A stretch of 64,000 nucleotides of DNA from Lewinellaceae bacterium SD302 (lineage in GTDB: Bacteria > Bacteroidota > Bacteroidia > Chitinophagales > Saprospiraceae), in assembly GCA_002591745.1 (NCBI GenBank), contig PDLQ01000002.1:186001-250000 (forward strand). The letters run 5' to 3'. Made by a program: the position numbers and the translations under genes. Positions 21,527 through 27,220 of the stretch are shown piece by piece. Every line of letters starts with the position of its first letter. Within the stretch, counting starts at the first letter, position 1. A model generated the notes under the pieces. It did not search any database. It saw nothing but the letters and a program-made list of their open reading frames with translations, and had not been told where the DNA came from.

Positions 21527-22708
21527 TTAGTTCACTCCACCCACAAACAATCGTTTCGTTGCCAAAATTCGGCCACGGGAGTTGATCAGGCTGTAAAGGT
21601 AAACGCCGCTCTGGAACTGACTGACGTCCACTTCGCTGCGCAGTTCACTGCCGCCAACCACGTTGAATTGCTGACTATAGAGTTTGCGGCCAATCGTGCT
21701 GTGGATCCGGAGTTCGTACTGACCGCTGGAGAGTCCGGTCGCCTGGAAAGTGGAAATGTTGCGGGCAGGGTTGGGAAACATCTTAACCTGATTGGCGGCC
21801 AAACTGGTTTCCTGGGTAGAACTGGTTCCCTCTACAGCAATGTAGACCATGCCGGTAACTACTTCCTCCTCTCCTTCCATCTCAACTTCAAAGACCGCAA
21901 TAGGGTCTACACTTTCATTACTCCAGAGAGTGTAGGTAATAACCGTATCCTGCTCTTCAAGTAATTCACCTACTTGTGGAAGACCGAGAACGATCGCCTG
22001 AGTGATGTCTTGCCATCCAAGGATGAAATTGTAAGCTTCCACGGTCACGCCACGGATTTCTTCGCGGCGTTCGCGTAATACGTCCCAGCTTTCAGTACCC
22101 AGTTGGGCTGTGCCATATGCGTCTACGAGATCTGTACGTTCGATCTCCGTCCGGAAGCGTACGGAATCGATACCGTCGGCAACGCCGAGATCTTCGAGTA
22201 CCATTAAAATTTCCTCTGGTATTTCTTCCAGCGGCAGGCTGACGAGGATATTGGACTCCAGGTTGAAGTTGTCGATAAACTCCAGTGGTGAACGGCGTTC
22301 TACGTAACCGGGAGAGAAAGGCGTAGTTACTTCAAAGTCTGGTAGAATATCGGATGCACCGATATTACCAATCAGTACCAGATCGCCGTCTACTATCTGG
22401 TAGTAGTTGGTCGCAACGTCTCCGGTAGGGAGTTTAAAGTCCGCTTGCGGGAATTCATCGTCCTGGGTGCCGGGCTCCAGGGCCTGGTAGTACTGCACGG
22501 AGGTACGAATGTCAATTAGCGTATTAAGGTCCCAGTTAAGCGGGCCGCCCGGCTCACCGAGCGCTACGGTCTGGACACTGGCACTATCAGCAACGCGGAA
22601 ATAAAGGGAGTCGCCGATCTCTGGCAAATAGTCTGCAGTGATTGTAGTTTGACCACAAAGGGAACCGACTAAAAGAGACAGGATTAAAGCTGGTAATGTT
22701 TTCAACAT
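21527..22708 (-). CDS. Secreted protein with T9SS type A sorting domain
   Basis: This 393-residue protein has a signal peptide (MLKTLPALILSLLVGSLCGQ). A beta-rich body of unknown family (20-300) contains YLPEIGDSLYFRVADSASVQ and LNWDLNTLIDIRT, a pattern common in Saprospiria proteins of unknown role. The T9SS sorting domain occupies the last about 85 residues (VKMFPNPARNISTFQATGLSSG ... GVYLYSLINSRGRILATKRLFV). It is exported through the outer membrane and probably surface-attached. It is transcribed alone and converges on the CHAT gene across a strong terminator. Confidence 0.75.
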   Translation of the reverse strand: MLKTLPALILSLLVGSLCGQTTITADYLPEIGDSLYFRVADSASVQTVALGEPGGPLNWDLNTLIDIRTSVQYYQALEPGTQDDEFPQADFKLPTGDVATNYYQIVDGDLVLIGNIGASDILPDFEVTTPFSPGYVERRSPLEFIDNFNLESNILVSLPLEEIPEEILMVLEDLGVADGIDSVRFRTEIERTDLVDAYGTAQLGTESWDVLRERREEIRGVTVEAYNFILGWQDITQAIVLGLPQVGELLEEQDTVITYTLWSNESVDPIAVFEVEMEGEEEVVTGMVYIAVEGTSSTQETSLAANQVKMFPNPARNISTFQATGLSSGQYELRIHSTIGRKLYSQQFNVVGGSELRSEVDVSQFQSGVYLYSLINSRGRILATKRLFVGGVN

Positions 22709-22844: not shown

Positions 22845-25800
22845 TTAGCGTATTGAAGCCAGCCAACGCTCGGTGGTTTCTTCGTCCCAGTCCTTACGCT
22901 TGCCATAGTCTTCGGCCTGGTCGTCCTGGATGCCGCGTACGGTAAAGTACTTGGCTTCGGGATGGCTGAAGTACCAGCCGCTCACACTGGCCGCCGGATA
23001 CATGGCGTAGCTTTCGGTGAGCTTGATACCGGTTGCGGCTTCGGCGTCCAGAAGCTCAAATAGTTTACCTTTTTCAGTGTGTTCGGGGCAGGCGGGGTAG
23101 CCCGGGGCAGGACGGATACCTTGGTACTTCTCCTGGATCAGCGCATCGTTATCCAGTCCTTCGTCGGGGGCGTAGGCCCAGAATTCGCGACGTACCCGCT
23201 GGTGCATCCGCTCGGCCAGAGCTTCGGCCAGGCGGTCAGCCAGGGCTTTGAGCAGAATGGCCTCGTAGTCGTCGTGATTGGTTTCGTAAGCCTTTACCCG
23301 GTCTTCGATACCCAGACCGGTTGTAACGGCGAAACCACCGATCCAGTCTTCCTGCCCCTTGGGGGCGATGTAGTCGACGAGGCTCTGGTTAGAAAGGTGT
23401 TTGGCTTTTTTGGCCTGCTGGCGCAGGTGATAAAGTTCCTGACGTATTTTCTCCCGAGTTTCATCTGTGTAAAGTTCAATGGTGTCGGTCGCCGCTTTGC
23501 CATTCGCTGGCCAGAAACCGACTACGGCGCGGGCCGTCAGCCATTTTTCTTCAACGATGCGGTCCAGCATCTCGCGGGCATCCTTGTACAATTTAGTCGC
23601 TTCTTCTCCAACGATCTCATCAGTCAGGATGTCCGGAAACTTACCGGCTAACTGCCAGCTGCTGAAGAATGGAGTCCAGTCGATGTAATCGACCAGTTCG
23701 CGAAGGTCATAGTTGTCAAAAACTTTGGTGCCGGTGAAGGTGGGGCGAGGAGCCTGATAATTTTTCCAATCCAGTTTCAAGGCATTGCTCCGGGCCTGAC
23801 CAATGGTGAGGTACTGCTTGCGGCTGGTTTGTCCGCTGCGATGCTTGCGAACTTTGTCATATTCTTCCCGCACTGCTACTTTGTAAGCCATAGCCTCTTC
23901 CTCTTCTTCGCTAAGCAATTTTCCGACTACGGTAACCGCCCGGCTGGCGTCCAGCACGTGCACAATGGGGCCATTGTACGCCGGCTCGATCTTTACGGCC
24001 GTGTGTGTTTTGCTGGTGGTCGCCCCCCCGATGAGTAGAGGAGTAGTCATGCCCCGGCGTTCCATTTCGGCGGCTACGTTCACCATTTCATCCAGAGAGG
24101 GAGTGATCAGCCCGCTGAGACCAATGATGTCGGCTCCGCAGGCCTGAGCTTCTTCCAGGATTTTGCTGGCGGGTACCATCACGCCGAGATCGACTATTCG
24201 GTAGTTATTACAGGCCAGTACGACACCAACGATGTTTTTACCGATGTCGTGGACGTCCCCCTTTACGGTAGCTAATAGTACTGTGCCTTTATGGTGCGAA
24301 GGCCTCTCCCCTAACCCCTCTCCGGAGGAGAGGGGGACGCTCCGCGCCGAGATGACTTGCTGCTGCGCAGCAGCAAGCGTCTCTTCCTTGATTTCCTCGG
24401 TAGGAAATTTGTGCGGACGATCTTTCCTGTCCTCTATGAATTGACGAATTTTCTCTAATACCTCGTAGGTGTTGTTTAGCACTTGCTCGTTGCTAAAGCG
24501 CATTATATGATAGCCAACCTTGGTAAATACGTCATCTCGTTCCTGGTCCTTGACGATCATTTTTTCGTCAAGGTGGTACCCACCATCGACTTCAATTACT
24601 AATCTTTTTTTGATAGAAATGAAATCAGGAATTGTGTACCCCATCGGCTTTTGACGAAAGAACTTAACACCTGCTACTTGATTATTACGGAGGTATTTCC
24701 ATAGCTCTTCTTCGGCTGGAGTTTGATTTTTACGCAGTTGTTTAGCGTAGTCAAGCATTAATTTTTGATGACCCGGTTTTACTTCCCAGTAGTTATCCGT
24801 TGGGGAAGAAAAGCTTTCAAGCTTTTCCAGCGCCACGGCACGGAGCGTTCCCCTCTCCTCCGGAGAGGGGCTAGGGGAGAGGCCTTGTTCCCGCTCCGCA
24901 TCGATATACGGCTCCAGGTAAGCAACGGCCTTCTTCATCACCCTGGCGGATTTTACCACCTGGGGCAAGAACATCTTACCCGAACCAAACAGATCACCAA
25001 CCACGTTCATCCCGTCCATAAGCGGACCTTCGATGACGTGGAGCGGGCGGGGTAGGGCCTGGCGGGCCTCCTCGGTATCTTCCTCGATAAACTCAGTGAT
25101 GCCGCGCACCAGGCTGTGGCGCAACCGTTCGGCATAGCTGCTCTCGCGCCAGGCCAGATCTTTTACGACTTGCTTGCCGCCAGTGCCTTTGAGGGTCTCT
25201 GCCAGATCGAGTAGCCGCTCGGTAGCATCATCGCGACGATTGAGGATGACGTCTTCGACGCGGGTTTTAAGTTCGGGGGGAATCTCTTCGTAGACCTCGA
25301 TCATGCCGGCATTGACGATGCCCATATCCATACCGGCACCAATAGCGTGGTAGAGAAAGGCGGAGTGCATGGCTTCACGAACTACATTGTTGCCCCGAAA
25401 GCTGAAACTGACGTTGGAGACACCACCACTGATCTTGACACCGGGGCAGCGAGCCTTGATCTCACGGGTAGCTTCGATGAAATCGACCCCGTAGTTGTTG
25501 TGTTCCTCAATACCAGTAGCGATGGCGAAGATATTGGGGTCGAAAATGATGTCGGTCGGGGCCAGGCCTGCTTTTTCGGTCAGGAGTTGGTAGGCACGGG
25601 TGCAGATCTCGACCTTGCGTTCGGCGGTGTCGGCCTGCCCCTTTTCGTCGAAGGCCATGACTACGGCGGCGGCTCCGTACTGCTTCACGAGCTTAGCCTG
25701 GCGGAGAAATTCCTCCTCGCCCTCCTTCATGCTGATGGAATTAACGATGCACTTTCCCTGAACGCACTGGAGGCCGGCTTCGATGATCTCCCATTTGGAA

Positions 25801-27092
25801 GAATCGATCATAATGGGCAGCTTGGCGATATCGGGCTCGGCCATAAGCAGGTTGAGAAAGGTGACCATTGCTTCCTTGCTTTCCAGCAGGCCTTCATCCA
25901 TATTAACGTCAATGACCTGGGCACCGCCCTCTACCTGTTGGCGGGCTACGTCCAGGGCTTCGGCGTAATCACCGTTCTTGATGAGGCGGGCAAATTTACG
26001 GGAACCGGTCACATTGGTACGCTCGCCAACGTTGACGAAATTCGTTTCCGGCCGGATGACCAGCGGCTCCAGTCCACTGATCTCGGTGTAACCACTGATG
26101 GCGGCGGGTTTGCGGGGTGAGATGCCCCTGACGGCCTTGGCCATTGCGCTGATGTGAGCCGGAGTGGTGCCGCAGCAGCCACCGATGAGGTTGACGTATC
26201 CAGACTGAGCGAAATCGCGGATATACTCTTTCATCTCGCTGGCATCCTGGTCGTATTCGCCCATTTCGTTGGGCAGACCGGCATTGGGGTAAGCGTGTAC
26301 GTTACAGGCAGCTACCTTGCTGAGCGCGGCGAGGTGAGCCCGCATCTCCTGGGCACCGAGGGCACAATTCAGTCCTACGCAAATCGGGTTGGCGTGGGCA
26401 ATACTGATGTAAAAGGCTTCCACGGTCTGCCCGCTGAGGGTGCGGCCGGAAGCATCGGTGATGGTGCCCGAGATCATGACGGGCAGTTCCCGGTCTGTCT
26501 CCTGACGAACGCGGTCCAGGGCAAAAAGAGCGGCCTTGGCATTAAGGGTGTCGAAGATGGTTTCGATCAGGATCAGATCCGCTCCACCGGCAGCCAGACC
26601 GGACATTTGCTCGTAATAAGCATCGGCCAGTTCGGTAAAGGTGATGGCGCGGTAACCGGGGTCATTGACATCCGGACTAATCGATAGCGTACGGTTAGTA
26701 GGGCCGACGGCTCCGGCGACGAAGCGAGGCTTGTCCGGGTTGGCAGCGGTGTACTCGTCACAGAGCTTGCGGGCCAGGCGGGCACTCTCGAGGTTGATGT
26801 CGTAAACGGCGGCTTCCATTCCGTAATCTTCCTGGGCGATGCTGGTGCCGCTGAAGGTATTAGTTTCAATGACGTCGGCACCGGCGTCGAGGTAGGCACG
26901 ATGGATATTTTCGATCACATCCGGCCGGGTAAGGACGAGGAGGTCATGGTTGCCTTTCAGGTCAATTGCTGCGTCGGGGAAGCGATCCCCGCGGTAGTCT
27001 TTTTCCTCCAGCCCGTAACCTTGAATGAGGCTGCCCATGGCACCATCGAGAACCAGGATTTTTTGGCGGAAAGCATCATGAAGCACGGACAT
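22845..27092 (-). CDS. metH: Cobalamin-dependent methionine synthase with an in-frame DUF559 nuclease insertion
   Basis: MetH moves a methyl group from 5-methyl-THF to homocysteine through cobalamin. The start is placed at the ATG at 27092 ([20 protein letters not shown]), giving 1,415 residues. All modules are present: the homocysteine domain with zinc cysteines ([14 protein letters not shown]), the folate domain ([19 protein letters not shown]), the B12 cap and the B12 domain (DVHDIG, ligand His948), and the SAM-binding reactivation domain ([28 protein letters not shown]). Residues 737-931 are foreign: a DUF559 nuclease domain flanked by peptides from a 48-bp inverted repeat. Removing them leaves about 1,220 residues, the normal length. 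The insert lies in the loop between cap and B12 domain, just before [17 protein letters not shown], a site of variable length in the family. The frame is open throughout, so a fused protein is predicted. No B12 riboswitch was recognised upstream. Confidence 0.93.
23871..23891 (-). repeat. Dispersed 20-bp repeat, short form, copy 7 (in metH)
   Basis: CACTGCTACTTTGTAAGCCA plus T; on the minus strand it encodes MAYKVAV, between the B12 and reactivation domains of MetH. Confidence 0.6.
24301..24348 (+). repeat. Left terminal inverted repeat of the DUF559 element
   Basis: It starts GGCCTCTCCCCTAACCCCTC. It contains an inner near-palindrome CCCCTCTCCGGAGGAGAGGG and translates in metH as [12 protein letters not shown]. 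It is 45/48 identical to the reverse of the right repeat. Confidence 0.9.
24356..24377. repeat. Left subterminal palindrome of the DUF559 element
   Basis: A perfect 22-bp palindrome with half-site CTTGCTGCTGC lies 7 bp inside the left terminal repeat. Confidence 0.8.
24808..24827. repeat. Right subterminal palindrome of the DUF559 element
   Basis: The 9-bp arms GAAAAGCTT and AAGCTTTTC flank a 2-bp centre, 9 bp inside the right terminal repeat. Its sequence differs from the left palindrome, but its position mirrors it. Confidence 0.75.
24837..24884 (-). repeat. Right terminal inverted repeat of the DUF559 element
   Basis: This is the inverted partner of 24301-24348, ending at 24884. In metH it encodes [16 protein letters not shown]. 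Confidence 0.9.
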
Positions 27093-27220
27093 ACAGAAGA
27101 TTTTTTTGAAAGCAGGGCGCAATTTACGGCCTTGTCGTGGAATGGTCGAAGTAAGAAATGATGAGAATGTGTGAATGGGGTCATCTTTTAACCTTTCTCT
27201 GCGCAACTCATCAAGTCTAT

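Follow-up and report, generated by a model that had tools for sequence, protein, structure and literature searches.

The metH gene of Lewinellaceae bacterium SD302 probably carries a selfish mobile nuclease element that is embedded in the protein, is not spliced out and has REP-like ends. The gene lies in the window, the stretch of 64,000 nucleotides that we analyzed (contig PDLQ01000002.1, positions 186,001 to 250,000). The insert looked like a selfish element living inside proteins because its close kin were likewise embedded in many unrelated housekeeping proteins. At the level of sequence, the comparisons presented here established its anatomy and its in-frame embedding in many unrelated hosts. 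They also showed that occupancy is patchy, that a single lineage has copies in different genes, that the catalytic residues are conserved and that dN/dS is low. A broader proposal, to which we give somewhat less than even credence, is that such elements are widespread and autonomous in mature proteins and that the nuclease is an enzyme devoted to moving a REP-like repeat family for which no mover is known.

We propose that the element consists of a homing-type DUF559 nuclease between two inverted REP-like hairpin repeats whose frames are mostly stop-free. Where a copy enters a flexible linker on the surface of a protein that the cell needs, and keeps the frame, it would be translated as an extra domain that stays in the protein without splicing out. 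The essential gene would serve as a shelter because most deletions would break the host protein. The nuclease may cut within or close to the repeat or an empty site, and repair would then copy the element, either as in homing or guided by the hairpin as in REPtrons. If this is true, homing nucleases and in-frame palindromes are joined in one autonomous element that persists within an essential protein, and the movement of some REP-like repeats becomes directly testable. The copies would also provide natural examples of sites where essential enzymes seemingly tolerate inserts of 130 to 200 residues, and would account for the oddly long MetH, IleRS, LeuRS and Gmk frames in Bacteroidota.

The insert in metH and its counterparts in other proteins

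The metH open frame extended from 22845 to 27206 on the minus strand (1,453 aa from a TTG codon) and was read through the insert without a stop, as the preliminary description had claimed. The likely start is Met39 at 27092, which gives a protein of 1,415 aa. Measured from arm to arm, the element occupied 24299 to 24886 (minus strand), and its 588 bp were divisible by 3 (196 codons). The arm on the N-terminal side (24836 to 24886, minus strand) was REP-like, with CCTCTCCCC followed by the hairpin CCCCTCTCC-NNN-GGAGAGGGG, and is coding sequence within metH. The inverted arm on the C-terminal side (24299 to 24349, plus strand) is likewise coding on the metH strand. These 51-nt arms were 486 nt apart and differed by three mismatches. 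The mismatch count in the preliminary description was correct; its repeat length of 48 bp and element length of 584 bp were not, each end being 2 bp longer. The arms were beyond chance because the arm core CTCTCCGGAGGAGAGGGG, with up to two mismatches, had 17 matches in the genome, including both arms, and a reversed control pattern had 0.

Pfam placed the insert between the MetH cap domain (B12-binding_2; 24912 to 25133, minus strand, aa 692-765), which formed the upstream flank, and the B12-binding domain with the DVHDIG motif (24003 to 24284, minus strand, aa 975-1068), which formed the downstream flank; this was the location originally reported. Between the arms, the DUF559 domain (PF04480; 24435 to 24755, minus strand, aa 818-924) matched profile positions 4-108 of 109 with an E value of 2.1e-31, and its score of 108.5 bits against a curated cut-off of 20.6 identified it as a member of the family. 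The expected catalytic set was found at Asp861, Glu872, Asp874 and His878 in the 1,453-aa numbering; counted from Met39, these are Asp823, Glu834, Asp836 and His840, exactly the residues named beforehand. The whole fused protein was still classified by NCBIfam as methionine synthase (metH, 1748.9 bits against a cut-off of 1010.85). In the 5.48-Mb genome, a draft of 147 contigs, this insert was the sole DUF559 match.

A predicted model of the cap, insert and B12 domain was poor overall (pLDDT 66.5), with a well-defined nuclease block and weak linkers. An AF2 model of the nuclease reached a pLDDT of 88.8 and matched the DUF559 structure 3hrl (profile E 2e-26, TM 0.84) and the homing endonuclease I-Bth0305I, 3r3p (profile E 1.5e-4, structure probability 1.00, TM 0.74-0.75 by target length). 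The match to 1vsr was weaker, with a probability of 0.95 but an E value of 0.047 and a TM of 0.4. These matches agreed with the earlier placement of DUF559 in the Vsr-like PD-(D/E)XK fold group, and the modeled fold and catalytic residues indicated membership in the EDxHD/Vsr-like nucleases.

DUF559 was found in 68 of 148 relatives. By hand count, 26 of the 82 strong matches (E ≤7.1e-20) in the 148 relatives lay in frames of at least 400 aa, compared with 0 of 136 matches to the control family UPF0102 in the same genomes, for which the longest frame was 283 (Fisher p 5e-13). We then analyzed 121 distinct loci, a set that included 80 loci added from named genomes (the best 80 of 539 relatives) and from which duplicates with identical domain DNA and loci with fewer than 100 bases of flank were removed before counting. 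In this set, again including the best 80 of 539 relatives, a host frame of at least 100 aa was present on both sides of the domain at 36 loci, on the C side only at 25 (contig ends truncate some of these), on the N side only at 5 and on neither side at 55.

A Pfam scan of 17 host proteins identified IleRS (two sites, one with two DUF559 stretches), LeuRS (two sites), chorismate synthase, MurC, MurF, MnmE, HemE (C-terminal), a methylmalonyl-CoA-mutase-type fusion, DnaE with an intein, Eco57I-type enzymes, an M23 peptidase, a phosphoesterase and others. IspF, Gmk, ArgB and a TrmH-like protein were recognized by eye as additional hosts, with DUF559 fused to Gmk and IspF. The IleRS frame with two DUF559 stretches (L178) used a site other than the common IleRS site. 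In the DnaE of N. lacunae (L051), a DUF559 element with arms lay inside the intein (PF14890), where the homing nuclease is expected. In a sample of the phylum, 222 of 395 genomes contained DUF559. When the best 30 loci of this sample were read by eye, 14 were embedded on both sides; 5 of the 14 shared the MetH linker, and 3 were in LeuRS site A, one of them by its left flank only. Two DUF559 stretches of equal score, each with one TAG inside, lay on a single contig of another genome (G061:C2:20209-20553 and 21998-22342), possibly as a tandem pair in decay. In phage and plasmid records, matches were found only at <60% identity (2 phage and 38 plasmid records).

Arms, solo repeats and the means of movement

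In the 121-locus set, which includes the best 80 of 539 relatives, the two flanks of DUF559 aligned as inverted repeats with a score beyond the 95th percentile for mispaired flanks at 77 loci and beyond the 99th percentile at 48. The 77 loci comprised 23 of the 36 that are embedded, 22 of the 25 with frame on the C side only and 32 of the 55 free ones; none of the 5 with frame on the N side only was among them. Arms of similar design flanked DUF559 at five of seven Pseudomonadota loci (L143, L175, L182, L188 and L194). In the phylum sample, detectable arms (score >19) were present at only 9 of 30 loci, which suggested that many copies had lost or changed their arms. In 18 embedded copies, an average of 84% of the arm frames contained no stop codon, compared with 75% in 28 free copies. 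Element length modulo 3 was uninformative as a framing test; the length was a multiple of 3 in 9 of the 18 embedded and 10 of the 28 free copies.

The preliminary description had proposed a search for the repeat with and without DUF559, and it occurred in both settings. Within the genus (Neolewinella/Lewinella), solo repeats were found in all nine nuclease-bearing genomes and in 6 of the 12 others (p 0.019). Reversed controls gave 0 to 3 matches per genome, and G018 had 3 matches against a control of 2. One genome (G020) was counted as nuclease-free, its sole DUF559 match being weak (E 6.5e-8) and unlike the element. Among 64 repeat units of the genus, retrieved with a search pattern that fixed the 9-bp stem, 60 had a loop of 3 nt, and the sequence after the unit was mostly (A/T)GAC. 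Some solo copies lay in frame in genes whose identity was read by eye, namely at a second MetH site of N. maritima and in a CusA-like loop of three genomes (G009, G019 and G002). In the CusA-like genes of the genus (L349-L368), a single hypervariable loop held solo palindromes and other in-frame low-complexity inserts; that of G005 (L351) contained a tandem peptide repeat with RQPGAYSGALPGRSDD.

The solo repeats raised the main alternative to a nuclease-driven element, which is that the REP-like repeat is the mobile unit, moved by a Y1/RAYT or MITE transposase, and that the DUF559 nuclease is cargo in a composite formed by two inverted repeat copies on either side of its gene. We consider this explanation unlikely, although it accounts for several observations. 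Solo repeats outnumbered nuclease copies and, as noted, were present in half of the nuclease-free congeners. G014 and G019 contained scattered repeat-bearing stretches of 111-131 bp that were up to 99-100% identical, and the G014 unit, a 112-bp MITE with GTGTGTATCACGAGATGCAC ends and a REP-like unit inside (L259, L260 and L263), had 8-bp target duplications at the three loci read. Matches to the MITE ends numbered 53 in G014, 10 in G002 and 9 in G010. Thus, the nuclease need not move arm-like copies, because some spread as MITE passengers. In addition, Y1_Tnp genes were present in 20 of the 21 genus genomes. On the other hand, of the 70 Y1 matches, 30 loci were inspected and none had the repeat within the stretch covered, although two contained loose palindromes of other sequence, and six Y1-bearing genomes had no repeat; RAYT therefore received no support as the mover. 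The recurrence of inverted arms at DUF559 loci, including those in Pseudomonadota, and the retention of the DUF559 catalytic residues also argued against a cargo role.

Two further MITE-like arrangements were observed. G019 contained a second unit of ~130 bp with TAAGTA...TACTTA ends and the repeat inside (L248, L249 and L253-L257), and its copies L254-L257 were 95-99% identical. In G002 (L369, L375 and L378) and G014 (L407), an element with CAGGGCTAACGCATACTC-like ends appeared by eye to be nested in the REP-like unit that the MITE carries, as though the palindrome had served as its insertion site.

Site occupancy, nuclease phylogeny and host function

We examined the MetH linker in 19 of the 21 genus genomes, which were those with a match to the MetH cap. 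Aligning close relatives to look for unfilled linkers, as had been suggested, was informative: 6 of the 19 had a DUF559 insert (G000, G001, G005, G006, G009 and G014), one (G015) had an arm-like palindrome and no nuclease, and 12 had a short linker. By eye, the left arm was read in a common frame in five of the six filled MetH proteins and in another frame in G009. In IleRS, a DUF559 of a different subtype filled a loop in G003 and G014, and a normal 38-aa segment was present in 15 of 17 genomes read; IleRS matches were found in 20 of 21 genomes, and the frames of the three missed by the reading pattern (G000, G001 and G007) were of normal length. All 13 strong DUF559 matches in the genus lay inside host frames, one at a contig edge. 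For copies with a nuclease, we found neither an empty site exact to the base nor a target duplication; the MetH, IleRS and CusA-like loops vary so much that the exact target site stayed out of reach.

In the nuclease tree, the grouping of copies followed the bacterial lineage more closely than the host gene. MetH copies of the genus were intermixed with MurF, MurC, phosphoesterase and intein copies. The LeuRS-A copies required six changes and adjoined AroC copies (L165) and Sphingobacteriaceae mutase copies (L185). The nuclease alignment was short and many forks were weak; the well-supported branches alone forced two changes for LeuRS-A and one for MetH. Copies in IspF and in Gmk did cluster. 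We applied the AU test to 53 of the 121 rows, leaving out 68 (free copies and those with HsdR, RM, RecQ, HemE, RNaseH or DegT hosts). A single clade of MetH copies was rejected (p 0.0023), a single clade of LeuRS-A copies was narrowly rejected (p 0.044) and a single clade of IleRS-A copies was not rejected (p 0.31).

Together, the unrelated hosts and the tree strongly supported the earlier proposal of an in-frame mobile element in a tolerated loop, and movement over evolution is well supported by these sequence comparisons. We infer that the element's own nuclease drives this movement, a step that is kept at the level of inference because some arm copies travel in MITEs and no base-exact empty site was found.

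A second alternative is that DUF559 is an old functional domain, acquired by MetH and other enzymes through ordinary domain fusion and kept for use, with fortuitous repeats. The presence of DUF559 in the MetH linker at 5 of the 30 best phylum loci (by eye) is in keeping with such a domain, as is dN/dS, which was 0.05-0.28 in the pairs for which it was computable (9 of 16). However, 13 of the 19 congeners lacked the nuclease in MetH, the hosts of DUF559 were functionally unrelated and the MetH copies did not form one clade. An old MetH domain common to all relatives and free of repeats was excluded within the genus by the short linkers, which accounted for 12 of the 13, and by the arms still visible in filled copies. 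Overall, we regard this explanation as improbable.

Even less probable is a domesticated regulator or defence nuclease carried by housekeeping proteins. Several hosts were restriction enzymes or methylases, and there were padloc matches to DpdF and a restriction enzyme, but these scored only 15-18 bits, and many hosts were enzymes of metabolism, the cell wall or translation that shared no theme. Finally, although the window genome is a 147-contig draft, an assembly or annotation artefact is highly improbable, because the named isolates Lewinella sp. IMCC34191 and N. maritima also had MetH inserts, IleRS inserts were present in two differently named Marinilabilia salmonicolor assemblies, the metH frame was open and dN/dS was low in the computed pairs.

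Of 63 copies that are embedded or fused, 62 had the complete Q, D, E, D and H set, as did 56 of 58 free copies. These counts include the best 80 of 539 relatives and partly reflect selection, because the motifs used to find those loci overlap the set. MetE was detected in none of the 21 genus genomes (controls were positive in 10 of 14), so MetH is probably functional as a 1,415-residue fusion. One strong IleRS match each was found in G003 and G014. All six Gmk fusions, and 3 of 10 IspF fusions, lacked a start codon between the nuclease and the host part (ATG, GTG or TTG before the P-loop in the case of Gmk). In the named isolates Segatella baroniae (L167) and Hoylesella timonensis (L181), the sole form of guanylate kinase seems to be the C-terminal portion of a protein fused to DUF559. 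The hosts, then, look functional.

Comparison with known systems

Inteins with a homing endonuclease are in-frame, nuclease-bearing inserts in essential proteins with a patchy distribution, and the DUF559 element resembles them in these respects. As the preliminary description had stated, the element differs from inteins in splicing: Pfam (E ≤0.001) detected no intein splicing domain in the window MetH, and among the 17 other hosts scanned it detected one only in the DnaE noted above, so the element is presumably not spliced. Like MITEs, the element has terminal inverted repeats, is small and is dispersed; unlike MITEs, it encodes a nuclease and is kept in frame. No target duplication was seen for it in host loops that are too variable for base-exact empty sites. 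Our search of titles and the openings of abstracts, which covered part of the literature, found no description of DUF559 elements between inverted repeats inside proteins.

In-frame REPs and Rickettsia palindromic elements (RPE), as described in the accessible part of PMC3733652, are likewise short palindromes that lie in frame inside genes. No nuclease gene is described for them in that part of the source, whereas the DUF559 element encodes one; the element is thus not a palindrome without a gene, a definition that some of its solo relatives fit by eye. REPtrons and TIRtrons (RAYT/TIRYT genes) share with the element an enzyme gene between inverted hairpin repeats and dispersed solo copies. 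Some TIRs of TIRtrons share the motif GGGGWSAS (PMC3733652, accessible part), and the arm here contains GGGGAGAG. In contrast to these systems, the enzyme between the inverted repeats is an EDxHD-like DUF559 nuclease rather than a RAYT/Y1 HUH transposase, and the element is often inside host proteins. The repeat was also compared with CGTC-tagged REPs, short hairpins that have an unpaired CGTC-like tag at one end. On the reverse strand, the 64 units mostly had GTC(T/A) before the stem, which was fixed by the search pattern. Relative to the CGTC-tagged REPs in the accessible part of PMC3733652, the loop was 3 nt in 60 of 64 units instead of 4-5 nt, and the A-T pairs at stem positions 1 and 2 were absent.

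PMC9403480 outlines inteins and places a DUF559 gene among the EDxHD homing endonucleases. The nuclease fold and sequence of the element are common to I-Bth0305I (3r3p) and 3hrl. I-Bth0305I was deposited as a mobile intron protein, whereas the nuclease described here is encoded within the host protein itself. Compared with the EDxHD homing endonucleases, the element adds inverted REP-like arms and many different hosts.
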